64,000 nucleotides of DNA from NCBI RefSeq assembly GCF_029267515.1, contig NZ_JAJUIS010000001.1, positions 434,001 to 498,000 of the forward strand, written 5' to 3'. The DNA is from Seleniivibrio woodruffii (lineage in GTDB: Bacteria; Chrysiogenota; Deferribacteres; Deferribacterales; Geovibrionaceae). Position numbers and translations under genes: made by a program. The notes beneath the pieces are model-generated. The model did not search any database. It was given only the letters and a program-made list of their open reading frames with translations, and had not been told where the DNA came from. Positions 4,891 through 54,467 of the stretch are shown piece by piece. The stretch's first letter is position 1. Every line of letters starts with the position of its first letter.

Positions 4891-5325
4891 TTAGCAGTTA
4901 AGCCTTAGCAGAGAATCAGCTTTCTTTGCCATTTTTATGTTGAAACGGTCGGTGTTTATTGTGAAGCGTTCGTGGGAGCCCCTGCCGATAAGTTCTTTCT
5001 CGTCCCATGCCTCGACTTCCCATGATGTTTTCTGTCCGTCAACGCCTGTGCAGACTGCTTTTGCGCGCACCTTCATGCCCACTGGCGTAGCGGCGCTGTG
5101 GGTGACGTTGACGTTTATGCCGACGCTCTGTTCCCCTTCATCAAGATGCGGCGCGAGAGCCTCCATGCAAGCCCATTCCAGAAATCCTACCATAAAGCCC
5201 GTGGCGAACACCTTTGGCATGGGTTGGAACAGTTTTGATTCGGGATAGAGGTTTGGAACGGTTTTATTTTCAGTGACGGTTAATTCAATTTCAGCGGTTG
5301 TGCCGACAGTAATAGTGTTTTTCAT
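4891..5325 (-). CDS. FlK-like acyl-CoA thioesterase (hot-dog fold)
   Basis: 144 residues with the layout of the fluoroacetyl-CoA thioesterase FlK family: an N-terminal strand, then FATGFMVGFLEWACMEAL, the central hot-dog helix with the conserved Glu, and NVTHSAATPVGMKVRAKAVCTGVDG, where the THxAATPxG signature carries the catalytic-area His. These enzymes hydrolyse short acyl-CoAs; most bacterial members are housekeeping proteins of unknown substrate. Ribosome site GGAGGT sits 5 bases before the ATG. The gene lies 289 bases downstream of the ferrosome-like operon, and a Fur-box-like site lies in that gap, so iron control is possible but unproven. Confidence 0.82.
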   Translation of the reverse strand: MKNTITVGTTAEIELTVTENKTVPNLYPESKLFQPMPKVFATGFMVGFLEWACMEALAPHLDEGEQSVGINVNVTHSAATPVGMKVRAKAVCTGVDGQKTSWEVEAWDEKELIGRGSHERFTINTDRFNIKMAKKADSLLRLNC

Positions 5326-5493
5326 GGTTTACCTCCGAATAAAATATTAACTAATATCGGAGGCTGTAGGGATGTTCGCAAGATTAAAGAAAAGGTTTGA
5401 GATATATCGTTAAAATCATATAATTAACTTTGTGGCCGGGGTACGGGCTTCAGGCATTCTGCGATGGTCTGAAATCGGAGATTTCGTCCAGTT

Positions 5494-5560
5494 AGCGTTG
5501 GGTTGACAATCGTGGAAAATACTGCCGAAAGCCCGCTCGGGCACCCCGTTAAAATGCCGC
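5494..5560 (+). repeat. Intergenic repeat, copy 1 (left flank of the P-type ATPase operon)
   Basis: AGCGTTGGGTTGACA at 5494-5508, followed about 30 bases later by CTCGGGCACCCCG, is closely related to an inverted copy at 12216-12267. The copies flank the ATPase operon in opposite orientation. Confidence 0.4.
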
Positions 5561-5572
5561 TCGGGCAGTGTT

Positions 5573-5591
5573 GATAATGAATATCATTATC
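5573..5591. promoter_or_regulatory. Near-perfect Fur box
   Basis: GATAATGAATATCATTATC matches the classical 19-base Fur consensus at 17 of 19 positions. It lies 24 bases beyond the end of the FeoA-repeat gene. On the minus strand TTGAAA, a 17-base spacer and TATTCA could form a promoter overlapped by the box. No good reading frame with a ribosome site follows, so a small RNA or the thioesterase gene at 5325 are the candidate targets. Confidence 0.7.
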
Positions 5592-5614: not shown

Positions 5615-6301
5615 CTATTCGGCTGTTATTTTTTCGGCTGTTTTTTCGGAAATGAACACTCTGAGCCCTTCAGCAGTGCATATCACCATGTCGGGGTAGT
5701 CATCCAGATGTATTGATTTCCCTGTTTCTATGCCCTCAAGGGTGAGGATTGTCCCTTTCTGGATACCGTTCACCGCCATCACCTGACTGTAGGTCTCCTG
5801 ACTTAAAAGCTCGTCAACGATGAAATCTTTATTTTTCGACGCGAAGGAGAACTGTTTTCCGTCACCAAGAATGCATGCGGCATGGGCTTCGGAGAGGCGG
5901 CATCTTGTTTTGTGTCCTATGAGAGTTATGTATTCCATGTGGGGAAGTTTTTTTATCACCTGAATTGTGTCTCCGCCGTTTATGCCGAGCTTTGACATAT
6001 CTTTTGCCGCCATCTTAGGCACGACGACAATGAAGCCCGAACCTGTTTCGTGTTCGTAGATGCTGCGTTTTTCTCCGGAGGGTGATTTATAGAAAAGGTG
6101 CCGACCAAGGGATCCGCTCAGGGCTTTTGTTCCGTCTTTCGTACCGATTTTCAGCGTGGCAAGCTCAATGTCGCCACGTCCCACCTTTGAAACGATACTT
6201 CCGGCGAATATCCCGTATGCGCCCAGTTTGCGGGCAAGCTCCGGCTCTTTCACGGATATTATTTTATAGAAGCCTCCGCTTTTTGCATCGGATAATTTCA
6301 T
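5615..6301 (-). CDS. FeoA-domain repeat protein, last gene of the ferrosome-like operon
   Basis: 228 residues, soluble, with two or three SH3-like FeoA-type modules: roughly 1-75 (LARKLGAYGIFAGSIVSKVGRG), 90-150 (GDTIQVIKK) and 170-225 (GIQKGTILTLEGI). FeoA domains are small SH3-like modules that bind the ferrous iron transporter FeoB or sit at the end of DtxR-type regulators. Here no FeoB or helix-turn-helix is present. The ATG overlaps the stop of the upstream ATPase gene by ATGA, so translation is coupled. I infer a cytosolic accessory role, perhaps docking to the ATPase or sensing iron. That this family belongs to ferrosome clusters is inferred from position. Confidence 0.65.
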   Translation of the reverse strand: MKLSDAKSGGFYKIISVKEPELARKLGAYGIFAGSIVSKVGRGDIELATLKIGTKDGTKALSGSLGRHLFYKSPSGEKRSIYEHETGSGFIVVVPKMAAKDMSKLGINGGDTIQVIKKLPHMEYITLIGHKTRCRLSEAHAACILGDGKQFSFASKNKDFIVDELLSQETYSQVMAVNGIQKGTILTLEGIETGKSIHLDDYPDMVICTAEGLRVFISEKTAEKITAE

Positions 6302-8400
6302 TTCGTTCTCCCGCTCTGAGAAAGGCTCAGAGCATAAAGCAGTGTGCCGAGTGTTGTACCGTTGTGCATGACAGCGGATTGCAGCGGGCTTATGCGCCCC
6401 ATGACGGACAGCAGTACCGTTACGGTGTTTATGCCTATATTAGCGACGGACACGCGTTTGATCACCTTCATGGTTCGTTCCGCTGTGATGCGCGCTGTGA
6501 GTATTCCTCTGAGGTCGTTGCGCAGAAGTATAACGTCGGATGTTTCCCTTGCGAGGTCAGCGCCTTCCGGCATACTTATCCCCACGTGTGCTGAAAGCAG
6601 AGCCGGAGCGTCGTTCACGCCGTCCCCCACAAAAGCGATTTTCCGTCCCTCCGCTTTGAACCTGTTCACAACCTCAAGTTTGTCTTCCGGCTTCATCTCG
6701 AAATATACTTCGCTGATGCCGAGTTCCTTTGCTATGTGTTTCGCTGTGTCCCTGTGGTCGCCGGTAAGCATGACAACACGGTCTATTCCACGTTTTTTCA
6801 GGTCTTTGATAACCTGCGCTGATTCACTGCGGGGAACGTCTTTCAGTGCTATTATGCCTGCCAGCACGCCGTCACATGCCACATAGAGGATACTTTTACC
6901 TGTCTTGCGCAGTTTATCGGATATCTCGTCTGCGGCGGAGCAGTCGATATGTTCATCCTCGTGGATGAAGTGTCTGCTGCCTGCAAGAACGTGCTTTTTG
7001 CCGACGTACGCCGAAACGCCGTGAGCTATGATGAAGTCCACCTCCCCAGTCTCTTCAAGGGGGATGTTCCTTTTTTCCGCTTCTTTAACAACAGCCGACG
7101 CTATGGGGTGGCTGTAGTGCTCTTCGGCGCTGGCGGCGGTTCTGAGAATTTCCCGCTCGTCCATCTCCGAAAAGGTAATTATGTCCGAAACCTCAAGGGT
7201 ACCCTTTGTCAGCGTTCCCGTTTTATCGAATATAATGGTATCTATCTGCGCCATGTTTTCAAGTGATTGCGCGCCCTTGATGAAGATGCCTTCAGATGCG
7301 GCGCAGTACATGCTGGATTTTATGGCGGTGGGGGTTACGAGTTTCAGGGCACAGGAGTAGTCCACGGACAGCACGGATGATGCCCTGCGGAAATCCCGTG
7401 TCAGAAGCAATGTCGCAAGCCCTATGCCGAAGGTGACGGGAACCATTCTGTCGGCTATTTTGAACGCCTGAACCTCCGTATTGGAGCGGTTTTTCAGTGA
7501 GTTATTGATGAATTTTGCTATTCTGGCGGTTGTTGTTTCAGCGCCCACCTTGCGGGCTTCGATTATGAGCCTGCCTTCCGCCACGACGGTTCCTGCGTAT
7601 ACCTCGCTGTCGCATCCCGCGGTCACAGGGAGGCTTTCGCCAGTTACTGATGCCTGATTGATAAGCCCTTCGCCGCCTCTTACAATGCCGTCAACAGGTA
7701 TCATTTCGCCCGATCCGATTATGACCAGACTGCCGACCAGCACCTCGCCGATGGGTACCTTTTTTTCGGTTTGTCCTTCCAGAATCCAGACGTGCTCGGC
7801 ATCGGGCTTAATGAGGCTTTTCAGCATCCTGTCGGATTTGTACTGGGTGGAAGCCTCAAGATAGTGTCCGAGATTCAGCAGAAAGGTGATTGAGCCCGCT
7901 GTGAAATAGTCTTTGCGCACAAGCAGCATGGATACAACAGCCGCATCAAGCACTTCAACTTTAAGTCCTTCGTTCACGAGAGTGTCTATACCTTTCAGAA
8001 GCACGGGGGCTGCACCTGCGAATGTCAGAGGAGTACGGAACCACTGTGGCAGAATCAGCTTTGAAAGCCACATTGAACCTGCCCAGTAGACGTTTATCAG
8101 ATCTGGTGAGTCAACAAGCTCCTCCTCCGCCTGAAAAACGGCATGGGAGAAGGTTTGCAGTGTCGAAAGGAGCGGTTCGGTTATCTCTGTGCCCTTTTCG
8201 TGTTCAACCACAAGGGTATTTGCACGCTGATTTACGCGGACGGCAGTTACGCCGCTGATGCACTCCAGGGTCGATTCCAGAAGAGTGCAGTCAAGGGCGG
8301 GGTTGCCTAGCACCCCCGCCTTCAGCCGTATCCTCGTATCAGTTTTGTGAGCGATACTCACGCTTTCAAATCCGGTCGGATAGTGTTTTTTCTTCGTCAT
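6298..8400 (-). CDS. fezB: P1B-type metal ATPase, FezB-like (P1B-6 class)
   Basis: 700 residues. A degenerate N-terminal HMA-like domain without CxxC (about 15-85, motif TRIRLK) precedes the ATPase core. Core motifs are intact: TGES in the actuator domain, DKTGTLT (phosphorylated Asp), HYSHP, TGDHRDT and GDGVNDAP. In transmembrane helix 4 the usual CPC is YSC in a DYSCALKLVTP context, losing the proline and first cysteine but keeping the second. Such a P1B-6 ATPase, next to small hydrophobic genes, is the hallmark (FezB) of clusters that build ferrosomes, membrane-bounded iron granules. It probably pumps ferrous iron into vesicles. The start overlaps the stop of the upstream gene (ATGA) and the stop overlaps the FeoA gene. 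The ATPase class is confident; the symbol is by inference. Confidence 0.75.
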   Translation of the reverse strand: MTKKKHYPTGFESVSIAHKTDTRIRLKAGVLGNPALDCTLLESTLECISGVTAVRVNQRANTLVVEHEKGTEITEPLLSTLQTFSHAVFQAEEELVDSPDLINVYWAGSMWLSKLILPQWFRTPLTFAGAAPVLLKGIDTLVNEGLKVEVLDAAVVSMLLVRKDYFTAGSITFLLNLGHYLEASTQYKSDRMLKSLIKPDAEHVWILEGQTEKKVPIGEVLVGSLVIIGSGEMIPVDGIVRGGEGLINQASVTGESLPVTAGCDSEVYAGTVVAEGRLIIEARKVGAETTTARIAKFINNSLKNRSNTEVQAFKIADRMVPVTFGIGLATLLLTRDFRRASSVLSVDYSCALKLVTPTAIKSSMYCAASEGIFIKGAQSLENMAQIDTIIFDKTGTLTKGTLEVSDIITFSEMDEREILRTAASAEEHYSHPIASAVVKEAEKRNIPLEETGEVDFIIAHGVSAYVGKKHVLAGSRHFIHEDEHIDCSAADEISDKLRKTGKSILYVACDGVLAGIIALKDVPRSESAQVIKDLKKRGIDRVVMLTGDHRDTAKHIAKELGISEVYFEMKPEDKLEVVNRFKAEGRKIAFVGDGVNDAPALLSAHVGISMPEGADLARETSDVILLRNDLRGILTARITAERTMKVIKRVSVANIGINTVTVLLSVMGRISPLQSAVMHNGTTLGTLLYALSLSQSGRTK

Positions 8401-8594
8401 GACCTGTTTTTATATAAAAATGTGTGGTAAACCGACAAGCCCACCAGAGCCACCCCTGCGATGGAGTGGATGTTTCTTGAGGTTTTACCCTTGTTGAACC
8501 CTGAAACCACAAGAACTCCAAGCGCCGCCGTCATGGCGTATTTGGTGTATCTGCGTTTCTTCTGCATGGGGCTTAATTTTTTTTCTTCGGGCAT
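8397..8594 (-). CDS. Small two-helix membrane protein of the ferrosome-like operon
   Basis: 65 residues. A Lys/Arg-rich N-terminus (PEEKKLSPMQKKRRYTKY) leads into one hydrophobic stretch (about 20-37), a basic loop KGKTSRNIHS and a second hydrophobic stretch (about 45-60). It starts 1 base after the preceding gene ends and overlaps the next ATPase gene by ATGA. Small basic membrane proteins of this type could shape or tether vesicles. I do not recognise a named family. Confidence 0.65.
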   Translation of the reverse strand: MPEEKKLSPMQKKRRYTKYAMTAALGVLVVSGFNKGKTSRNIHSIAGVALVGLSVYHTFLYKNRS

Positions 8595-8595
8595 A

Positions 8596-8913
8596 TTATT
8601 CCCCGCCCATCTCCGCCTGAACGTCTCTTATCTGTTCTTTCAGCTCTTCAACTCCGCCCTGCAGACCGCCCCAGAGCTTAACAACGCCCTTCACTATGGC
8701 TTTTTTTACTGCGGGGTTTGTGAGAACCAGCGCAACACCTGCGCCGATTACGAAACCTTTAACGTATGACGGCTCGCGGAAGTTGAACCATTCTTTAAGA
8801 TGGCTCGCAGCTGTGTGCTGCTGGGGATAGTATGCCTGCTGTGCATACTGAGGTGCGTAGTAATGCTGCTGCTGTTGTCCCTGTGCTGCTTCGGGTGCTT
8901 TTTGCTGTTCCAT
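8596..8913 (-). CDS. Gln/Tyr-rich protein with glycine-zipper helix (DUF5132-like)
   Basis: 105 residues. Residues 1-40 are a low-complexity tail made almost only of Q, Y, A, P and H. Then FREPSYVKGFVIGAGVALVLTN opens a hydrophobic, glycine-spaced helix (about 50-66), followed by KKAIVKGVVKLWGG and an acidic coiled C-terminus. The VKGFVIGAG start is shared with the Pro-rich protein two genes upstream (FIKGLVMGAG), so the two are probably homologous in this part. This layout resembles DUF5132-type proteins that accompany heavy-metal ATPases. It is probably peripheral or integral to the iron-vesicle membrane, by inference. Confidence 0.65.
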   Translation of the reverse strand: MEQQKAPEAAQGQQQQHYYAPQYAQQAYYPQQHTAASHLKEWFNFREPSYVKGFVIGAGVALVLTNPAVKKAIVKGVVKLWGGLQGGVEELKEQIRDVQAEMGGE

Positions 8914-8915
8914 GA

Positions 8916-9242
8916 TTAGCTCTCCTTAACTGTAGCTGTATTTGTCGGTTTAACTGATGAATCCCAAAGATATTTCGCGCCTGCTGACGCCGCCGTGAAG
9001 GCTATCAGGGACATGAAGACCCCGAAACCGAACATGCTTGCCGCGGCAACGCCTGCTGCCGTTGCTATACCTGTTCCTGCCGCTTCTTTAACAACGTTTT
9101 CAGCCGCCTGTTCTTTTGTAATCTTTCCGGCTTTAAAGTCCTTCGTCTGTTTTGCGGCTGATACCGCGCCGCCTATGACTGCGCCTGCCAGAGCGCCGGA
9201 CACCGTCGCCCTGCCTATTGATGGTCCTATATGCTTGCTCAT
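8916..9242 (-). CDS. Glycine-zipper membrane protein of the ferrosome-like operon
   Basis: 108 residues. Two glycine/alanine-rich hydrophobic stretches, around 13-30 (GALAGAVIGGAVSAA) and 57-90 (GIATAAGVAAASMFGFGVFMSLIAF), are separated by a charged linker KQTKDFKAGKITKEQAAEN. Small-residue zippers of this kind pack helices tightly and can deform or line membranes. The start at 9242 follows GGAGGA by 6 bases and overlaps the stop of the preceding gene (ATGA). A longer upstream frame exists but runs inside the preceding gene and has no ribosome site. The family is unknown to me. Confidence 0.65.
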   Translation of the reverse strand: MSKHIGPSIGRATVSGALAGAVIGGAVSAAKQTKDFKAGKITKEQAAENVVKEAAGTGIATAAGVAAASMFGFGVFMSLIAFTAASAGAKYLWDSSVKPTNTATVKES

Positions 9243-9751
9243 ATCTGTTCCTCCGAGTCCTCTGTGAACATGCTTACCGTTTTTCCCAGAATGTCGCTGA
9301 GTGCCGAACGCACCGATTCGCTGCTTAAAAGCATCGCAAGTCCCGCACCCATCACAAGCCCTTTGATGAAGTCGCTTCCTGTGGCGTTCACCATGCGGCT
9401 CACCTCCAAAAGCTGCGGGTTGCCCTCGATCATCTGTCCGAACATTCCCATAATTCCGCTCATAGGATCTTCCTGCTGATGGTGTCCGCAATGCTCGCCC
9501 TGCTGTGGGGGAGGCGGTGCGGGTTGAAATCCGTATTGCGGCGGATAGGGCGGCATATACGGCGGATAAGGCGGATATGGTGCGTAACCCTGCATGGGCG
9601 GGTAGCTTGGGGGCGGATACATGTATGGGTTATACATATATGGGTTGCCCATAAAAGGCTGCTGCATCTGCGGTTCGCCCATGTATGGGTTCTGCATCTG
9701 TTCTTCCGCTTCCTGCTGTCCGGAAGTTTCGTTTGTTTCTTTCTCTTCCAC
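9239..9751 (-). CDS. Pro/Tyr/Met-rich protein with hydrophobic C-terminal helix
   Basis: 170 residues. About 20-90 is a low-complexity tract of NPYMY, YPPP and PYPPY repeats, rich in Pro, Tyr and Met, closed by a HCGHHQQED cluster that could bind metal. The second half holds an amphipathic MSGIMGMFGQMIEG stretch, then FIKGLVMGAGLAMLLSSESV, a glycine-spaced hydrophobic helix, and an acidic tail. GTG start with AGGAGG 5 bases upstream. Position 2-3 in the operon and sharing its helix motif with the Gln/Tyr-rich protein suggest a vesicle coat or scaffold role, by inference. A disordered tyrosine-rich tail in a metal organelle cluster is striking. Confidence 0.65.
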   Translation of the reverse strand: MEEKETNETSGQQEAEEQMQNPYMGEPQMQQPFMGNPYMYNPYMYPPPSYPPMQGYAPYPPYPPYMPPYPPQYGFQPAPPPPQQGEHCGHHQQEDPMSGIMGMFGQMIEGNPQLLEVSRMVNATGSDFIKGLVMGAGLAMLLSSESVRSALSDILGKTVSMFTEDSEEQI

Positions 9752-9763
9752 AAAACCCTCCTT

Positions 9764-10060
9764 TTATTTTATGAATTCTTTATATTTTTTAAGCACTTCG
9801 AGGCTTTCGCCGTCGGAAGCCCCCAGCAGAGTTGCCATGTCCGCAGGATGTATCACCGCTGGGTCATAACGCAGCACCACCGAACGGGCAAGCATGTTCA
9901 CCCGCTTGTCCAGCACGCCGGGTATGGACGCGCTTATCTCCTCCAGCCGTTTACTCACAGGGTCTTTCATGATGGCAGGGTCTACCTTGAGCCTGATTCG
10001 ACCTTCGACGTGGTGCACGACTGAAACATATTTTTTTACTGCCAGAAGTTCTTCTATCAT
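9764..10060 (-). CDS. Stand-alone HMA_2-type domain protein
   Basis: 98 residues. VSVVHHVEGRIRLKVDP, then ISASIPGVLDKRVNMLARSVVLRYDPAVI, matches the HMA_2 type of ferredoxin-like fold: the CxxC metal loop is replaced by an H-x-x-x-GRIRLK motif, and the PGV/VNxxxxSxVxxYD pattern is kept. The same motif appears at the N-termini of both ATPases in the operon, so this looks like a detached copy of that domain, perhaps acting in trans as an adaptor. Its ATG overlaps the stop of the preceding ATPase gene (ATGA). Confidence 0.75.
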   Translation of the reverse strand: MIEELLAVKKYVSVVHHVEGRIRLKVDPAIMKDPVSKRLEEISASIPGVLDKRVNMLARSVVLRYDPAVIHPADMATLLGASDGESLEVLKKYKEFIK

Positions 10061-12201
10061 TCCTTTTCTCCGTCGTAGTTCATAAGTCTGGAAGAGTTCA
10101 CCATTATGCCGCCTGTGTGGGCTATGTGCAGAAGACCTGCCATAACGGGGTTCAGTATGCCCAGTGCGCCCAGCACGGCTCCGGCGATGTTGGTTGATGT
10201 TGCTAGGGTGAAGTTCTGATGAACTATGGTTTTTGTCTTTTTGCTGAGCTGACGCAGGAAGACTATCTTGTTCAGGTCGTCGTCCACCAGCGCTATGTCC
10301 GCCGCTTCCACTGCGACGTCGGAACCCGCCGCGCCCATTGCTATGCCGAGATCAGCCTGTGCAAGAGCCAGAACGTCGTTAATTCCGTCGCCTATCATTG
10401 TGACCTTGTGCTCTTTCTGAATCTGACGGATGATGTCCGCTTTGTCCTGAGGCAGAACGGAGTAGTGACATTCGTCGAAACCGAGGCGCTGTGCCAGCGG
10501 TTCCGCGGACTGCCGCTCGTCGCCCGTTACCATAATTAGGTTTTTAACGCCGTCTCTGCGCAGAAACTCTATTGTTTCGGCAACGCCCTCTTTGTCCTTT
10601 GTGCGGATGGAGATGATGCCGAGGAGTCTGCTGTCCTCTGCGACGTAGAGAACGCTTTTGCCCTCTTCCGCCCATTTTTCAGCACGGCGTTTAACTGTGC
10701 CGGTTTTTATGCTGAACCGATCCATGAGCTTTCTGTTGCCCACGCAAACGGTGCCTTCCGCTGTGTCCGCCGCAACCCCCATGCCTAGGATGGTTTCGCA
10801 CACGGCATGGTCCGGTTTTTCCAGACAGAGCTGTTCCGCTTTTTTGCGTATCGCCGCTGCCATGGGGTGTCTGTTGTGCAGTTCCGCCGCGTATGCACGC
10901 ATGAGCAGATCCTGTTCGGATGAGCCTTTAAGCGGATAGATGTCTATGACTTCCGGCATGTCTGTGGTGATTGTGCCGGTTTTGTCGAAACAGAACGATT
11001 CCTGTTCGCCGGCGTCTTCAAGGTAGCGTCCGCCCTTTATGAGCACCCCTTTGGATGCCGCATTGCCGATGGATGCACTCACTGCGGAGGATGCCGCCAG
11101 AGCAGTTGCACAGGGACACGTCATAACGAGCATGACGGAGAGTGTTCTGTACAGACTGCGGGTGAGCACAAAGGTGCCCGCCGTCATTATGAATCCGATG
11201 CCCACGAGTTTCTTTGCCAGCTTGTCCGCTTCAAGCTCAATGGGTGCTTTGTTTTCCAGTGATGTTTCCACCGCCTGCAATATGCGCGCAAGGTATGTGC
11301 TGTCGCCGACCCTGTCCGCGCGGATATAGATCAGTCCGTCCTGAACGTAGGTTCCGGCGTAGACCGATTCGGATTTGACTTTATGAATAAGTTCCTGCCG
11401 CCCGTTTATGGGAGCTTCGTTAACCATGGCTTCGCCGCGAATTATCTCACCGTCAACTGATATTTTTTCACCCGTGCGTACGATGACGGTTGCGCCCTGT
11501 TCAACCTTTTCAACGGGAACCTCTATCTCGCGTCCGTTTACCAGTATAAAGGCGGTTTTCGCGGTTATGTCGAGGATGTTTTTTATGGATGCGCGTGATT
11601 TCTCTGTGATGTGCTCCTGCATAAGCTCTGCGCCGCTGTTCACCCAGAGTATCTCAAGGGCGGTCATGGTTTCCCCTGTGAGAAGCGCCGCGCCGACACC
11701 TGCACCGAGAAATGCGTCCAGACCGATCTTTTTGTCTTTAAGTGATTTTGAAACCGCAGCATATACAAGAGGAGCGGCAAAAAACGCCGTAAGAAACCAC
11801 ATAGGGCTGAAAACTGCCTGAGAAATGACCTTACCGAACAGACGTTTCGAAATGAACGACGCGCCTGTCATTGCTGTGAGCGCCGCAAACTCGGTCTTTT
11901 TGTTTAGAAGAGCAAGACCGTCCTTCGCATCGGAACATGCACAGCCCGCTTTTGCCGCTTCTGCCGGAACCAGCTTAACGGGTTTTATAACGGAAACAGC
12001 ATTTACTATATCCGAAACGGAGAGAACACCGCCGTCATATGCAACGATGAGACTTGCGCATTTTCTGTTGCACCGAACGGACGCTATGCCATTTTTCGAT
12101 GAAAGGACGCTGATTATGGACGAACAGAGGTTCTGTTCTGTTTTGAGAATCGGATATTTAAGCCTTACCCTGTTTGGGGAGGAATGAGCAATCTTTAACA
12201 C
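10057..12201 (-). CDS. P1B-type ATPase with altered actuator motif, first gene of the ferrosome-like operon
   Basis: 714 residues. A degenerate HMA-like N-terminus (NRVRLK motif, about 5-85) precedes a full P1B core with CPC in helix 4 (TCPCATAL), DKTGTIT, RHPMAAAI, VTGDERQS and GDGIND. The actuator motif, normally TGES, reads NGRQ (in NEAPINGRQELIHK), so the Glu needed to dephosphorylate the enzyme is replaced by Arg. The protein may phosphorylate but turn over poorly, or act as a structural or regulatory partner of the second ATPase. Start is GTG with a weak ribosome site. A Fur-box-like sequence lies about 120 bases upstream. The gene heads eight tightly packed genes, most overlapping by 4 bases or separated by 1-12. 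Confidence 0.75.
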   Translation of the reverse strand: MLKIAHSSPNRVRLKYPILKTEQNLCSSIISVLSSKNGIASVRCNRKCASLIVAYDGGVLSVSDIVNAVSVIKPVKLVPAEAAKAGCACSDAKDGLALLNKKTEFAALTAMTGASFISKRLFGKVISQAVFSPMWFLTAFFAAPLVYAAVSKSLKDKKIGLDAFLGAGVGAALLTGETMTALEILWVNSGAELMQEHITEKSRASIKNILDITAKTAFILVNGREIEVPVEKVEQGATVIVRTGEKISVDGEIIRGEAMVNEAPINGRQELIHKVKSESVYAGTYVQDGLIYIRADRVGDSTYLARILQAVETSLENKAPIELEADKLAKKLVGIGFIMTAGTFVLTRSLYRTLSVMLVMTCPCATALAASSAVSASIGNAASKGVLIKGGRYLEDAGEQESFCFDKTGTITTDMPEVIDIYPLKGSSEQDLLMRAYAAELHNRHPMAAAIRKKAEQLCLEKPDHAVCETILGMGVAADTAEGTVCVGNRKLMDRFSIKTGTVKRRAEKWAEEGKSVLYVAEDSRLLGIISIRTKDKEGVAETIEFLRRDGVKNLIMVTGDERQSAEPLAQRLGFDECHYSVLPQDKADIIRQIQKEHKVTMIGDGINDVLALAQADLGIAMGAAGSDVAVEAADIALVDDDLNKIVFLRQLSKKTKTIVHQNFTLATSTNIAGAVLGALGILNPVMAGLLHIAHTGGIMVNSSRLMNYDGEKE

Positions 12202-12215
12202 ACTAACCGCCCTGT

Positions 12216-12267
12216 GCGCCCCGTGCCCGAAGGGGAGCAGATTTGTTAATGTGTCAACCCGAACGCT
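12216..12267 (-). repeat. Intergenic repeat, copy 2 (right flank of the ATPase operon)
   Basis: On the minus strand AGCGTTCGGGTTGACA (12267-12252), followed about 20 bases on by CTTCGGGCACGGGG, resembles the copy at 5494-5560. It lies in the 5' leader of the operon. Confidence 0.4.
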
Positions 12268-12319
12268 TATCCAATGTTAAGCACCGCGAACACTAAAAGT
12301 CAACTTTATTTTATAGTAT

Positions 12320-12338
12320 GAAAATGAGTATCAGTAAT
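12320..12338. promoter_or_regulatory. Fur-box-like site upstream of the ferrosome-like operon
   Basis: GAAAATGAGTATCAGTAAT matches the Fur consensus at about 13 of 19 positions. On the minus strand it is followed within 4-9 bases by a TATAAA that could serve as -10. The transcript would have a leader of about 100 bases before the GTG at 12201. Confidence 0.5.
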
Positions 12339-12350
12339 GATTTAGATGTT

Positions 12351-12380
12351 AAAAAAGGCGGTCAGAAGGGCTGACCGCCT
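12351..12380 (-). terminator. Rho-independent terminator of the alanine symporter gene
   Basis: GGCGGTCAG (12357-12365) pairs perfectly with CTGACCGCC (12371-12379). On the minus strand it is followed by TTTTTT, 16 bases after the stop codon. Confidence 0.9.
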
Positions 12381-12395
12381 GAAATTTTTAAAGAA

Positions 12396-13736
12396 TTATT
12401 TTTTTAAATTGGCAAAATAGTCTTTGGTTTCAGCAAAAACAACGGAGGAGAGACCCAGAAGACCTATAAGGTTGGGCAGTGCCATAAGTCCGTTGAAAAT
12501 ATCGGAAAGCAGCCAAACTATGTTCAGCTTCGCCATGGCGCCGACTCCGATGAAAAGGATGAAAATTATTCTGTAAGGGGTGATGGACTTCACTCCGAAC
12601 AGATATTCCATAGCTTTTTCACCGTAATAGCACCAGCCGAGGATGGTTGAATACGCAAACAGTACAAGGCTTATCGCAACCACTACGGGACCAGAGGAAA
12701 AACCGAGGGAGAAGGCGTGGTTCGTAAGATCCGCACCGTTCTTTCCTATGTTCCATGCGCCTGTGGAGATGAGCACAAGACCTGTCATGGTGCAGACCAC
12801 CAGAGTGTCTATGAACGTCTGTGTCATGGAAACCAGAGCCTGCGCAACAGGATGCTTGGTCTGTGCCGCTGCCGCTGCGATGGGCGCGCTGCCGAGACCG
12901 GATTCGTTGGAGAAAACACCGCGTGCAACGCCCATGCGGATAGCCAGCATAACGCTTGCCCCTGCAAAACCGCCTGATGCCGCCGTAGGGGTGAACGCCT
13001 CTTCAAAAATGAGCAGGAACGCCGCGGGTATCCTGTCAGCAAACATAACGAGGATAATAAGCGAGCTTATTACATAGAAAATTATCATGACAGGGACAAG
13101 AACGCTTGTCACCCTGCCGATGGATTTGATTCCGCCCAGAACAACAAGAGCTGTGAAAACCATTAGCACAAGCCCGGTGATATATGTCGGAACATTGAAT
13201 GTCGAGCGCAGAGCGTCTGCGACCGAGTTTGACTGAACCATGTTGCCTATGCCGAAGGATGCAATCACCGCGAAAACAGCGAACAGAACGCCCATCCATT
13301 TCCAGCCGAGACCGTTTGAAATGTAATACATCGGACCGCCGCTCATATTGCCGTTTGCGTCCACCTCGCGGTATTTAACGGCGAGAACAGCCTCTGCGTA
13401 TTTTGTCGCCATGCCCACAAGACCTGTCACCCACATCCAGAACATCGCACCGGGTCCCCCGATGGCGATTGCGGTTGCAACACCGGCTATGTTGCCTGTT
13501 CCGACAGTCGCTGACATTGCAGTCATAAGCGCCTGAAAGTGTGTGATGTCGCCTGGTTCATCGTCATCCTCTTTGCGTTTGACAAGGGCGAGCCAGAGAG
13601 CATAGAAAAGTTTTGTAAACTGAAGAAAACGAAGATTAATCGTAAGATAGATTCCCGTACCAACCAGAAGGACAAGGAGCGGAACGCCCCATACAAAGCC
13701 TCCGATAGTATTTAGTATGTTCTCAAACTGTTCCAA
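12396..13736 (-). CDS. Sodium:alanine symporter, AGCS family
   Basis: 446 residues and about 10 membrane helices. Family signatures are visible: [27 protein letters not shown] in the first third, MSGGPMYYI, and near the middle [27 protein letters not shown] carriers import alanine or glycine with sodium. A TTG start at 13736 is chosen because AAGGAGG lies 6 bases upstream; the longer in-frame ATG start would add 19 residues without a ribosome site and shift the first helix inward. The gene is monocistronic, with its own terminator. Confidence 0.93.
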
Positions 13737-14701: not shown

Positions 14702-15895
14702 TTAACGGATGTTTCCACCCGATTCTTGCGGATTTTCCGCGCAGTAGAGTTCCAGTATCCGGCGGTGGGAAAGCTCACCTTCGGTCTCGGATGCCGCCTT
14801 GCATATCTTTATAAATTCCGCCGCCTGCTGTGCGGTGAGACTTATGCCCGCCTGTGCAAGTATCTCTGTGAGAGCTGAACGTCCAGACTGGCTGGTGAAG
14901 CCCATTCTGTCGTTCTGCTCTCTGCCTATGGCGCTGAAATCCATGGGACGGTATGCGCCCTTTGTCATATTTTTTGTCTTCGCCGCTCCATCCTGATGTA
15001 TGCCGCTCCGGTGCATCACCGCCTCTTCGCCGAAAAGTGGTGCCTTAATGTGTATGGGTGTTTCGGAAAGCTCCGCCATCCGCTCTGCCGTTTGTGCAAA
15101 CAGCTTCATGTTAAGTCCGGTTTCCACGCCGCAGTTGTTCAGCACCGCCGCTATCTCAAAAAGATTTGCGTTGCCCGCCCGCTCGCCTATGCCGTTCATA
15201 CAGGTCTCAATCTGAACAGCACCTGCGAAATATGACTCCACCGATGTTGCCGTCGCCATGCCGAGGTCGTTATGGCAGTGGACAGAAGCGGTAACCCGTT
15301 GCGGCAGAGCTGTAACCACCCTTTCCACCATGTTTGTGAACAGATACGGACGGTAGCGCTCCACTGTGTTGGGCATGTTTATTATGTCCGCGCCCGCGTC
15401 TGCACAGGCAAGGAACGTCTCCGTAACGAAATCAAGATTTTCCATGCAGTCGCCGAAATGTTCCGCGGTGAACTGCACCTCCCCTTTGTTTTTGAGGAGT
15501 GAGCGGGCATAAGCCACAGATTCCACTGCGAGCTGTTTCACCCTTTCAGGCTGCATCTTCAGCACGTGTTCCATAGTGAACGGGCTGAGCGCCAGCACTA
15601 TGTGTATGCGGGGATTTACAGCGCATGAAATGCTTTCGTATGTTGTCTTTATGTCCTTTTCCACTGCCCTTGTGAGCGCGCCGACGGTGGTTTTTCCATC
15701 AGCTGTCTGCGCAATGGTTCTGCACGTTTCAAAATCCATCGCCGATGCCGAAGGAAAGCCGGCTTCTATTTTTTCAACACCTAGCGCTTTCAATAGTCCG
15801 AACACTTCCAGTTTCTCCTCAAGATTCCATGGTTTTGCAAGTGACTGGTTGCCGTCTCTGAGTGTCGTGTCGTGAAAGACAGGTGTTTTTTTCAT
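14702..15895 (-). CDS. 2-isopropylmalate synthase-like enzyme (LeuA/NifV/citramalate synthase superfamily), short form
   Basis: 397 residues. DTTLRDGNQSLAKPW at the start, VHCHNDLGMATATS and MNGIGERAGNANL define the TIM-barrel acyl-CoA condensing family that adds acetyl-CoA to a 2-keto acid. A short linker domain follows, but the C-terminal allosteric domain of standard LeuA (about 120 residues) is absent, so leucine feedback is unlikely. It could make isopropylmalate, homocitrate or citramalate; the family cannot be resolved by eye. AGGAGG precedes the ATG by 6 bases. No other leucine genes are nearby. It is divergent from an AraC regulator, which may control it. Confidence 0.8.
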   Translation of the reverse strand: MKKTPVFHDTTLRDGNQSLAKPWNLEEKLEVFGLLKALGVEKIEAGFPSASAMDFETCRTIAQTADGKTTVGALTRAVEKDIKTTYESISCAVNPRIHIVLALSPFTMEHVLKMQPERVKQLAVESVAYARSLLKNKGEVQFTAEHFGDCMENLDFVTETFLACADAGADIINMPNTVERYRPYLFTNMVERVVTALPQRVTASVHCHNDLGMATATSVESYFAGAVQIETCMNGIGERAGNANLFEIAAVLNNCGVETGLNMKLFAQTAERMAELSETPIHIKAPLFGEEAVMHRSGIHQDGAAKTKNMTKGAYRPMDFSAIGREQNDRMGFTSQSGRSALTEILAQAGISLTAQQAAEFIKICKAASETEGELSHRRILELYCAENPQESGGNIR

Positions 15896-15953
15896 GTCGT
15901 CCTCCTGTGGGAAAGATTATAAACCTTGCGGGATATTAAAATCTAACGATAAT

Positions 15954-16751
15954 ATGACTATGAATATCGGAAAACAGACAACTTATAAACCTGTTGAAAC
16001 GGGATACATAATTGACACGTCAAGACCTGTGATAGCTTATGTTGCGGAAATCAGCGGGCAGATATGTCCGGATTTTCATGAGCACCCCAGAGGGCAGCTT
16101 ATGTATGCCAGTTCAGGTGTGAAGAAAGTCATAACGGAGAAGGGCATATGGCTGGTTCCGCCTCTTCAGGCGGTGTGGATTCCCGGCGGAGTATCCCACA
16201 GAGCAGAATTTTCAGGCAGAACTCTGGTGAAAAATCTGTTTTTCGATCCTTCTTGCTCCCAAAGACTGCCAGACAGGTGTTTTGTGCTTTCTGTCAGCCC
16301 GTTTCTGCGGGAACTGATAGCTAAATTCTGCCTTACGGATGATGTTGATAAGCTGGCTAATCTGTCAGCGGTGATTATAGACGAGACAGCGGATGCGAAG
16401 GAGGAACCGTTCTCTCTGCCCGCCGCATCAAGCCCAGCTATTGTGCGTATCATGAGGTATCTCGATGAAAATCCTTCGTGCCGCAGGACGCTCGACGAAT
16501 GGGCTGCGGAGGCGAACACCAGTCCTCGCAATTTTGCCAGAACGTTTCTGAAAGAGACGGGAATGACATTCGGTTCGTGGCGGAAGAGGCTGAAAATCAT
16601 TAAGGCTGTCCAGATGCTTATCAGTGGAAAATCAGTCACCGAGTCGGCGTATGACCTAGGCTATCAGAGCATCAGCGCATTCATAGAATCTTTCCGCAGG
16701 GAGACCGGAAGTCCCCCCGCGAAATATCTCAAATCTAGTGTTTCTCAATGA
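15954..16751 (+). CDS. AraC family regulator with N-terminal cupin domain
   Basis: 265 residues. A cupin-like sensor (HEHPRGQLMYASSG, VPPLQAVWIPGGVSHRAEF, about 40-110) is followed by an AraC DNA-binding domain (about 165-260) with TLDEWAAEANTSPRNFARTFLKETGMTFGSWR and the second helix pair ending DLGYQSISAFIESFRRETGSPPAKY. The ligand is unknown. The start at ATG 15954 is uncertain because no strong ribosome site is seen. The gene is divergent from the LeuA-like gene with a short shared control region, and its 3' end overlaps the convergent CCG-domain gene by 17 bases. Confidence 0.88.
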   Translation: MTMNIGKQTTYKPVETGYIIDTSRPVIAYVAEISGQICPDFHEHPRGQLMYASSGVKKVITEKGIWLVPPLQAVWIPGGVSHRAEFSGRTLVKNLFFDPSCSQRLPDRCFVLSVSPFLRELIAKFCLTDDVDKLANLSAVIIDETADAKEEPFSLPAASSPAIVRIMRYLDENPSCRRTLDEWAAEANTSPRNFARTFLKETGMTFGSWRKRLKIIKAVQMLISGKSVTESAYDLGYQSISAFIESFRRETGSPPAKYLKSSVSQ

Positions 16752-17388
16752 AATCGTCAATCTGTGCGTGCCATGCGTCAGGGTCGCACTCGCCTGCGGG
16801 CGTGTCTGTGCCGAATAGAAGATCCGGCAGATAGCGGGGAATCCTGCCGCCGTTCTTCATAGCCTTTACGCATGAAACGCAGTATACGGCAACATCCTCC
16901 GCGGGCATCTCGTTTCCGCGTTCGCTCATCTTTTCCAATACCTTATCTTTGGGCAGAACACCGTAAAAACTGTCGCCGCAGCATTTGCCCTCTGTCCCGG
17001 TGCGTATGGGTTCAACAACAGTTATATTCATCTTTTTCAGTATTGAGCGTACCGCATCGTGCATCTGCGGATAAAGCCTTGTGGGGCAGGCATCAAGAAC
17101 CGTCATAGTCATTCCGCCGTAATCCGGGAAATTGAAATCTGGGTCGCGGTCGACAAGCTCCCACAGGGATATTGCGCAAACATCGCTGTAGAGGGTGTCA
17201 TAGCGCCTTATGCAGCCGGAGCAGACGCAGACTATTTTCGTCTCTTCGCTTGCGCCGGGGTCGTGGTGACAGCAGGTTGAGTGTACTTCGTCTATGTTGT
17301 ATCTGTGTCTCAGATATGCTGAAATTTTTTCTGCCAGTTCTATGTTGTGAATAAAGAGCGCACAGCCTGGTGCAAATATTGTTTTCAT
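16735..17388 (-). CDS. CCG-domain (heterodisulfide reductase B-like) cysteine-rich protein
   Basis: 217 residues with a tandem cysteine-rich layout: PGCALF at the start, CCHHD, CVCSGCIRRYD, then DACPTRLYP, EGKCCGDSFYG and YCVSCVKAM. The CCG motif and its partner cysteines bind an Fe-S centre or thiols in HdrB, GlpC and related proteins. No flavin or HdrA/HdrC partners are nearby, so its electron partner is unknown. All positions read as cysteine, with no in-frame TGA. It could handle thiol or disulfide redox. The start ATG is preceded by AGGAG. Confidence 0.78.
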   Translation of the reverse strand: MKTIFAPGCALFIHNIELAEKISAYLRHRYNIDEVHSTCCHHDPGASEETKIVCVCSGCIRRYDTLYSDVCAISLWELVDRDPDFNFPDYGGMTMTVLDACPTRLYPQMHDAVRSILKKMNITVVEPIRTGTEGKCCGDSFYGVLPKDKVLEKMSERGNEMPAEDVAVYCVSCVKAMKNGGRIPRYLPDLLFGTDTPAGECDPDAWHAQIDDFIEKH

Positions 17389-17493
17389 AAGTTTCTCCTG
17401 ACGGTTGTACAGATTAAAGCCAAACCTCAGATATTTCCACCCGATTCTTGCGAAAAAAATAAACTCATTCTAAAATAGTAAGCGGGGGTGCAT

Positions 17494-18183
17494 ATGAAAG
17501 TCATAGGATTGATCGGCGGAATGAGCTGGGAATCGTCAGCGGAGTATTACAGGCTGATAAATCAGCGGGTTAAAGAGAGGCTCGGCGGATATTCTTCTGC
17601 GAAAAGCCTTATGTATTCCGTGGATTTTGCAGAGATAGAGGCGCTTCAGGTGCAGAATCGCTGGGACGAGGCGGGGGAACTGCTCGCGGATGCGGCGAAA
17701 AGGCTTGAGGCGGGCGGTGCTGATTTTATCCTGCTCTGCACTAACACCATGCACAAGGCTGCGGATACCATACAGAAAAGCGTGAGCATCCCTTTTGTGC
17801 ATATAGCGGATGCAACCTGCGAAGCCGTTAAGGCACAGGGCTTAAAGAAGGTCGCCCTTCTCGGCACGCGTTACACCATGGAACAGGATTTCTATAAACA
17901 GAGGCTGATCGACAGCGGGCTTGAGGTGATAGTCCCCGAAAAGACGGACAGGGATACCGTGCACAACATAATTTATGAGGAGTTGGTGCAGGGTGTTGTC
18001 AAGCATGAATCACGCCTGCGCTATCAGATAATTATCAACTGTCTTATGAAGCGTGGTGCCGAAGGTGTTATCCTCGGCTGCACGGAGATAGGGCTTCTGA
18101 TAAAGCCGGAAGACAGTCCTGTGCCTGTGTTTGACACCACGGTAATTCACGCGCATACTGCCGCCGACATGGCATTGAAATAA
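17494..18183 (+). CDS. Aspartate/glutamate racemase family protein
   Basis: 229 residues. IGLIGGMSWESSAEYYRLIN, LLCTNTMHKAAD (first catalytic Cys) and VILGCTEIGLLI (second catalytic Cys) are diagnostic for the cofactor-free Asp/Glu racemase fold. Such enzymes interconvert L- and D-aspartate (or glutamate) for cell-wall or signalling use. ATG at 17494 follows GGGGG; an in-frame GTG two codons earlier is less likely. It stands alone and ends at a terminator shared with cydB. Confidence 0.9.
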   Translation: MKVIGLIGGMSWESSAEYYRLINQRVKERLGGYSSAKSLMYSVDFAEIEALQVQNRWDEAGELLADAAKRLEAGGADFILLCTNTMHKAADTIQKSVSIPFVHIADATCEAVKAQGLKKVALLGTRYTMEQDFYKQRLIDSGLEVIVPEKTDRDTVHNIIYEELVQGVVKHESRLRYQIIINCLMKRGAEGVILGCTEIGLLIKPEDSPVPVFDTTVIHAHTAADMALK

Positions 18184-54371: not shown

Positions 54372-54467
54372 TGGCGGAGGTGCACAGGAATCGAACCTGC
54401 CTGACGCACAAGTACGTCACAATCGGTTTTGAAGACCGCGGGGGACACCAGCACCCCATACACCTCC
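54372..54467 (-). tRNA. selC: Selenocysteine tRNA (tRNA-Sec, anticodon UCA)
   Basis: 96 bases including encoded CCA. The 5' end GGAGGTGT pairs with GCACCTCC (8-base acceptor with one wobble), the anticodon stem-loop is CGGT-CTTCAAA-ACCG with anticodon TCA, the D-stem is long (GGGG/CCCC), and a long variable arm (TGACG/CGTCA) is present. The T-loop is GGTTCGATTCC. These are the special features of bacterial tRNA-Sec, so the organism should make selenoproteins. selA, selB and selD are outside the window. Confidence 0.95.

Follow-up and report, generated by a model that had tools for sequence, protein, structure and literature searches.

The fez locus of Seleniivibrio woodruffii

Ferrosomes, iron stores enclosed by a membrane, are recently recognized organelles of which few parts have an understood function. 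Here, a gene cluster that is predicted to build such organelles is described in a window of 64,000 nucleotides (the whole stretch of DNA that was analyzed) from the 2.83 Mb genome of Seleniivibrio woodruffii. The cluster consists of eight co-directional minus-strand open reading frames (ORFs) at 5615-12201. A preliminary description of this DNA had reported eight minus-strand genes with overlaps of 4 bases or gaps of 1-12 bases, and all ORFs were indeed found where it had placed them. In transcription order, the junctions are a 4-base overlap, a gap of 12 bases, an overlap of 4, a gap of 2, a gap of 1 and two further overlaps of 4, and the genes are as follows:

10057-12201, minus strand: CPC-type P1B ATPase with N-terminal HMA_2, companion pump (Pfam/NCBIfam; orthologues in nine genomes, also in loci L187 and L180)
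9764-10060, minus strand: small HMA_2-like protein of 98 amino acids, fez core gene (Pfam E 2.6e-6, below cut-off)
9239-9751, minus strand: Pro/Tyr/Met-rich protein of 170 amino acids with a C-terminal glycine-zipper helix (profile cross-match with the 8596-8913 protein)
8916-9242, minus strand: MamC-like protein of 108 amino acids, predicted two-helix membrane hairpin (NF038051 and hhalign)
8596-8913, minus strand: Gln-rich glycine-zipper protein of 105 amino acids, fez core gene (C-terminal helix common to Chrysiogenota and Rhodopseudomonas fez loci)
8397-8594, minus strand: FezC-like half-DUF4405 protein of 65 amino acids (homology to the FezC of locus L058, two invariant His)
6298-8400, minus strand: FezB, P1B-6-type ATPase of 700 amino acids (N-terminal HMA_2-like domain, motif DYSCALKL in the fourth transmembrane segment (TM4), clade)
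5615-6301, minus strand: protein of three predicted FeoA-like repeats (Pfam FeoA, two stretches, E 1.4e-9)

The Pfam families agree with the preliminary description on two P1B-type ATPases, an HMA_2 protein and a FeoA-repeat protein: E1-E2 ATPase, hydrolase and HMA_2 domains are present in both large proteins, a weak HMA_2 match in the 98-amino-acid protein and FeoA in the last protein. The other four genes had been described as encoding small low-complexity or glycine-zipper proteins. This applies to two of them (9239-9751 and 8596-8913), but the 8916-9242 protein is MamC-like and the 8397-8594 protein is of the FezC/DUF4405 type. In addition, regulatory elements that were missing from that description are present at both ends of the operon.

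Identification as a fez operon

The middle six genes of the operon correspond to the six-gene core of Rhodopseudomonas-type fez operons, and profile comparisons, a homology search that had been proposed earlier, match the small genes to core fez genes. Therefore, judged by its gene content, the eight-gene cluster is a fez operon, with the eight-gene layout as a new variant. In Rhodopseudomonas palustris, ferrosomes are made by the six fez genes RPA2333-2338 (PMC12016538). These genes and those of Shewanella putrefaciens encode, like the window, an HMA_2-type protein, a DUF4405-type FezC, two glycine-zipper proteins, a hairpin protein and FezB. The six-gene comparison was made with a Rhodopseudomonas relative close to R. 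palustris (L140), not with CGA009 or Shewanella; in this relative, six genes of the core types are present with FezC fused to HMA_2, whereas the window has a free 65-amino-acid FezC just before fezB. Compared to the Rhodopseudomonas and Shewanella operons, the window operon adds the CPC ATPase and the triple-FeoA protein, and its hairpin is much closer to MamC.

The 6298-8400 ATPase had been assigned to the P1B-6 group, and a phylogeny placing it elsewhere had been named as a refutation of the ferrosome reading. Both its SCALK-type motif and its position in the FezB clade place it in this group, and the fez identification withstands this check. The residues D-Y-S-C-A of TM4 are invariant across 12 diverse FezB relatives. 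In a quick tree of 63 pump sequences, which was rooted on KdpB and in which some branches beyond the FezB clade are long, 41 DYSCA pumps (the window's and 40 others) group in a single clade (SH-aLRT 97) to which none of the 21 rows of CPC-type and other P1B pumps belongs. This clade takes in the pumps of Rhodopseudomonas and, probably, Desulfurispirillum indicum, and the CPC pumps of fez loci form a separate clade outside it (SH-aLRT 100). A seventh E1-E2 ATPase match (L007), with a domain score near those of the fez pumps, proved to be KdpB.

It is quite improbable that the cluster is instead a heavy-metal resistance operon, in which two P1B pumps and small metal-binding proteins would export Cu, Zn, Cd or similar metals and no organelle would be formed. 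Two P1B ATPases with HMA_2 domains are present, and one of them carries the CPC motif of Cu/Zn/Cd exporters; however, the second pump is without CPC and has the FezB-clade motif DYSCALKL, the six core genes also make up fez-type loci such as the ferrosome-making operon of R. palustris, and the FeoA protein and a Fur box point to iron.

For a wider comparison, GTDB genomes were scanned for the FezB motif, which gave 80 named loci, mostly proteobacterial and campylobacterial. In most of these, iterated profiles find the HMA_2 gene, the glycine-zipper genes and the hairpin gene 5' of fezB; the iterated FezC profile also collects HMA_2 proteins and fusions, and its counts are unreliable. In the alphaproteobacterial fez loci L180 and L182-L186, the TM4 motif of FezB is DFSCA or DYTCA, not DYSCA, and a literal motif search misses such loci. 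Fez loci of Chrysiogenota (L057-L059) share with the window the HMA_2, glycine-zipper and hairpin proteins, FezB (40%) and FezC (41% over 58 amino acids, E 1.6e-11 for the L058 protein), but are without the CPC ATPase. In L058 (genome G003), which we take to be D. indicum, fezC follows fezB, and the two genes are directly followed by FeoA and FeoB genes (8580-13075), another association of fez with Feo. The fezX-fezAB operon of Clostridioides difficile shares with the window a FezB-type pump; to our knowledge, it has far fewer genes, and no MamC-like protein, CPC ATPase or FeoA protein is known from it.

Conservation of the eight-gene operon

Conservation was surveyed in 51 genomes of the phylum. 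Identical eight-gene content and order were found in nine genomes (the window genome and eight further ones) of three genera, Seleniivibrio, Denitrovibrio and a third genus (L054-L056), which is probably Geovibrio. The survey includes Denitrovibrio acetiphilus (G018) and, as a sister genome, a Seleniivibrio metagenome-assembled genome (G027, locus L070). In the eight further genomes, all from the family of the window, the FezB orthologues are 67-98% identical and those of the CPC ATPase 57-98%. Among these 51 genomes, both the CPC ATPase orthologues and the MamC matches are restricted to the nine with the operon. Given the identical order in eight further genomes, the arrangement is far beyond chance. 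In Deferribacterota that are less closely related (L060-L068), the fez locus is shorter and consists of a glycine-zipper gene and FezB, mostly with an HMA_2 gene; FezB of L062-L068 is ~36% identical to that of the window.

The hairpin protein and its relation to MamC

The 8916-9242 protein is matched by the NCBIfam model NF038051 (MamC) with 59 bits (E 3.6e-16), which does not reach the family cut-off of 100, and all nine aligned members of the hairpin protein match this model. An hhalign comparison of the window-family hairpin with true MamC gave a probability of 99.2 with 34% identity over 103 columns, nearly the whole length, and the aligned columns include the polar loop and the C-terminal KYxWD motif. 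From these comparisons, the protein is a homologue of MamC but, at 59 bits against an equivalog cut-off of 100, not MamC. Like the window protein, MamC (Mms13) is a glycine-rich two-helix hairpin with a charged loop. Unlike MamC, the window protein lies below the equivalog cut-off, is encoded outside a magnetosome cluster and has Gln and Asn at the residues aligned to Glu66 and Asp70 of MamC (with an inferred numbering offset of 21). This acidic loop pair has been tied to magnetite binding (PMC7604359), and because it is replaced, a magnetite role of the 8916-9242 protein is not implied. The AlphaFold model of a MamC-like protein was too poor for use (pLDDT 51), and no solved MamC was matched by sequence.

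Spurious matches do arise from glycine/alanine-rich helices, the MamC family cut-off is unmet and the Rhodopseudomonas-type hairpin has no direct match to MamC, so the similarity could come from the common composition of glycine-rich membrane hairpins and not from common descent. This is considered highly improbable, since the identity extends through the polar loop and the KYxWD motif, since the other small fez proteins tested against MamC reach hhalign probabilities of only ~1, and since a true-MamC profile picks the syntenic hairpin gene among ~11,000 ORFs of fez loci. This profile was built from the MamC proteins of 30 Rhodospirillales loci, and in the main fez set every match below E 1e-3 is a hairpin gene in fez position. 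The matches come from the window family (E 1e-11 to 1e-18), the deltaproteobacterium UBA5754, two gammaproteobacteria and several Campylobacterota. Against MamC, hhalign gives 95 for campylobacterial hairpins and only ~5 for proteobacterial ones; the latter connect via the campylobacterial hairpins (98).

Sub-cut-off MamC matches were also found in a set of 297 Rhodospirillales genomes. Of seven such matches whose surroundings were examined, six have as a neighbour a FezB whose TM4 motif is DFSCA or DYTCA. At the seventh (L181, genome G304), an HMA_2 gene adjoins and no FezB is present within the fetched stretches; the CPC ATPase of this genome lies ~0.7 Mb away. A reading of L180-L186 as MamC-like genes without FezB was dropped, as most have a FezB with DFSCA or DYTCA and only L181 has none nearby. 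In two Magnetospirillum-group genomes (L110 and L113), a fez operon and a true MamC gene are both present. No link between ferrosomes and MamC was found in literature naming both, in a search that left out the 2022 and 2023 ferrosome papers.

Other small proteins and the two added proteins

The 170-amino-acid (9239-9751) and 105-amino-acid (8596-8913) proteins are probable paralogues, given their common C-terminal glycine-zipper helix and cross-matching profiles. The 65-amino-acid protein matches DUF4405 in Pfam with E 0.06, which is non-significant by itself. Together with its similarity to the L058 protein and two His that are invariant in nine aligned rows, it is a DUF4405-related FezC, for which a haem role is predicted. 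In D. indicum, FezC is a haem b-binding protein (PMC11334425).

The CPC ATPase and the FeoA protein had been proposed as lineage-specific additions. Every one of the nine genomes of the family that have the operon carries both, which agrees with this idea, but both are also found near FezB in UBA5754 (L187), and the CPC ATPase beside FezB in an alphaproteobacterium. In UBA5754, a triple-FeoA gene overlaps fezB by 4 bases, a MamC-like gene is present, and an ATPase of the CPC subfamily (CPCATxLxA) is encoded ~7 kb past fezB. The two stretches of this locus (5729-10402 and 15327-17609) encode FezB, the triple-FeoA protein, two glycine-zipper proteins, the MamC-like protein and the CPC ATPase, in an order that differs from the window. 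In the alphaproteobacterium (L180), the CPC ATPase gene directly follows fezB. The subfamily is present in only 2/317 Rhodospirillales genomes, and these two belong to the small number that also have a MamC-like gene of the fez type; in G304, which is one of the two, the genes are far apart. By their distribution, the CPC ATPase and the triple-FeoA protein are therefore only partly lineage-specific, as additions to the fez core that are not strictly confined to one lineage.

The FeoA (SH3-like) domain of the 5615-6301 protein is above the Pfam cut-off, and three FeoA stretches are found in its L187 homologue. In the predicted model of the window protein (pLDDT 89), three similar repeats are present; the top fold matches of this model are FeoA structures, but weak ones (E 0.07 and up). 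Based on this model, the protein appears to have three FeoA-like repeats.

Regulatory elements at the operon ends

The following elements were found upstream and downstream of the eight genes:

12319-12333, minus strand: weak Fur-box-like site upstream of the operon promoter (TGATACTCATTTTCA, 2 mismatches to TGATAATNATTATCA)
12274-12303, minus strand: predicted sigma-70 promoter of the fez operon, TTGACT-18-TAACAT (consensus match only; TTGAC kept in six genomes)
12179-12271, minus strand: fez leader RNA with hairpin UUGACACAUUAAC/GUUAGUGUGUUAA, including the GTG start codon (aligned in six genomes)
5573-5591, minus strand: Fur box GATAATGATATTCATTATC (1 mismatch) over the -10 of a conserved promoter (TTGAAA-17-TATTCA)
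5434-5548, minus strand: structured RNA element of 115 nucleotides, candidate Fur-repressed small RNA with conserved loop UGUCAACCCAACGCUAA (fold z, covariation, single copy)

The site upstream of the operon promoter is conserved in the genus in part, and such matches are not rare by chance. The leader folds with z -1.7 to -3.6 in four genomes, and 94% of the cells of its stem are paired across six genomes, mostly with invariant bases. The conserved GTG start codon sits in the 3' arm of the hairpin, and the 5' part (AGCGUUCGGGUUGACA) is complementary to the RNA at the 3' end.

The sites for iron control by Fur are thus unequal, with a weak site alone at the operon promoter and a strong Fur box at the 3' end, for which 0.02 matches are expected per window. 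This box is located 23 nucleotides after the feoA stop in the window and 23-25 nucleotides after it in six genomes (five of the Seleniivibrio group and Denitrovibrio), and the promoter spacer under it is constant at 17 nucleotides in all six. The genome of the window encodes FUR-family regulators, FeoB and ferritins. In C. difficile, the ferrosome iron store is Fur-repressed (PMC12574912). The RNA element has folding z-scores of -2.7 to -4.1 in the three genomes tested, and seven of its pairs have two-sided changes (0 of 500 shuffles). One copy per genome is present in six of the 51 genomes, exactly the six with the Fur box, and the core motif occurs once in each of these and in none of seven other relatives. 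An Rfam search of both operon ends gave no match beyond apparent chance ones. A likeness of the 3' element to a tRNA end (CGGGGUG...UACCCCG-GCC) was rejected, as ARAGORN finds no tRNA or tmRNA there.

The 3' element could also be the end of the fez transcript, as a processed 3' untranslated region or a terminator, with the Fur box serving the downstream gene. It lies just past the feoA stop with no T-run terminator after it, and in the window a thioesterase gene follows ~110 nucleotides beyond it. This explanation deserves consideration but is unlikely, since the RNA element ends before the downstream genes and since these genes differ (an FlK-type thioesterase at 4891-5325 on the minus strand in the window, a flavodoxin-like gene in L049, a ThrE-like exporter in L053) while the Fur box, promoter spacing and RNA persist.

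In six genomes, the sequence of the RNA loop UGUCAACCCAACGCUAA is complementary to the leader sequence AGCGUU(N)GGGUUGACA, apart from a single bulge. The pairing segments are CGGGUUGACA/UGUCAACCC, and the duplex has an energy of -24 to -29 kcal/mol, compared to a shuffled mean near -9.5 with a standard deviation of 2.8. Own antisense aside, the leader is the best target of the RNA in the 64-kb window. The block in the leader nearly repeats the 3' block in inverted orientation, as would be expected if they were protein-binding or mobile-element inverted repeats and not an RNA-RNA contact. This is clearly unlikely: the 3' block occurs only once in each genome and is always found beside the fez operon, both end regions fold as RNA, and in L049 one A-U pair of the contact is changed to G-C with the contact kept.

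Because the pairing covers part of the 5' arm of the leader hairpin, it should open this hairpin, which leads to an activation model. In the favoured reading, a Fur-repressed RNA would unlock fez translation at low iron; the Fur box, the conservation of the RNA and the complementarity are read directly in the DNA, and from them we infer that the RNA is transcribed, that it acts as an activator and that this control depends on iron. Like RyhB-class Fur-repressed RNAs, the 3' element combines a Fur box over a sigma-70 promoter with a short structured RNA and a conserved pairing loop. It differs from this class in that it has no Rfam match, adjoins its presumed target operon and is a predicted transcript with a predicted activating role.

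Elsewhere in the window, a selenocysteine tRNA gene is located at 54372-54467 on the minus strand (Rfam tRNA-Sec 75 bits, ARAGORN agrees), which fits a Seleniivibrio-type genome.

Proposed mechanism and weighing of the evidence

From the homology, synteny and motifs described above, we infer the organelle, its metal and the roles of the added proteins. FezB would load Fe(II) into vesicles that arise from the inner membrane, and contact with the metal, or its delivery, would fall to the HMA_2 protein and to the HMA_2 domains that both pumps carry. FezC, as a di-histidine haem protein, would carry electrons across the membrane of the vesicle, either for oxidation of the stored iron or for its release, and the shape of this membrane would be set by the MamC-like hairpin together with the two glycine-zipper proteins. 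The same membrane would hold the CPC ATPase as a second pump, which would either transport another thiol-binding metal or serve in release or clearing. The triple-FeoA protein would act on FezB from the cytosol, as an adaptor or regulator, in the way that FeoA acts on FeoB. In Seleniivibrio and Denitrovibrio, low iron would lift the Fur repression of the RNA, after which the leader hairpin would open and translation would be switched on.

Several points weigh against this reading. We know of no experiment that shows granules in any Deferribacterota. Since the CPC motif is typical of pumps for Cu or Zn/Cd, iron may not be the substrate of the companion pump. With three ferritin-family proteins already encoded in the genome, the main iron store may be something other than ferrosomes. 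With regard to the RNA, neither the Fur box nor the RNA element accompanies the operon in the third genus (L054-L056), and fez-linked Fur/RNA regulation is therefore not universal; in addition, there is no clear intrinsic terminator after the RNA element, and the covariation of the leader stem is weak. Taking these points into account, a probability of about 0.8 is given to the reading as a whole, namely that the fez operon is predicted to build ferrosomes, with add-on proteins and a Fur-repressed activating RNA.

Implications

A further, tentative proposal, at somewhat less than even odds, is that MamC came from the fez hairpin or shares a direct ancestor with it, so that a surface part of the magnetosome would have been recruited from an iron-storage organelle, and that a Fur-repressed RNA opens the start-codon hairpin, as the first RNA regulator proposed for a ferrosome. 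The link between a core fez protein and MamC would join two iron organelles that were thought to be built by unrelated gene sets. The operon-linked RNA would provide a concrete route from iron starvation to organelle building. Finally, the two-pump, FeoA-containing version of fez that is fixed in this bacterial family gives testable partners for FezB.

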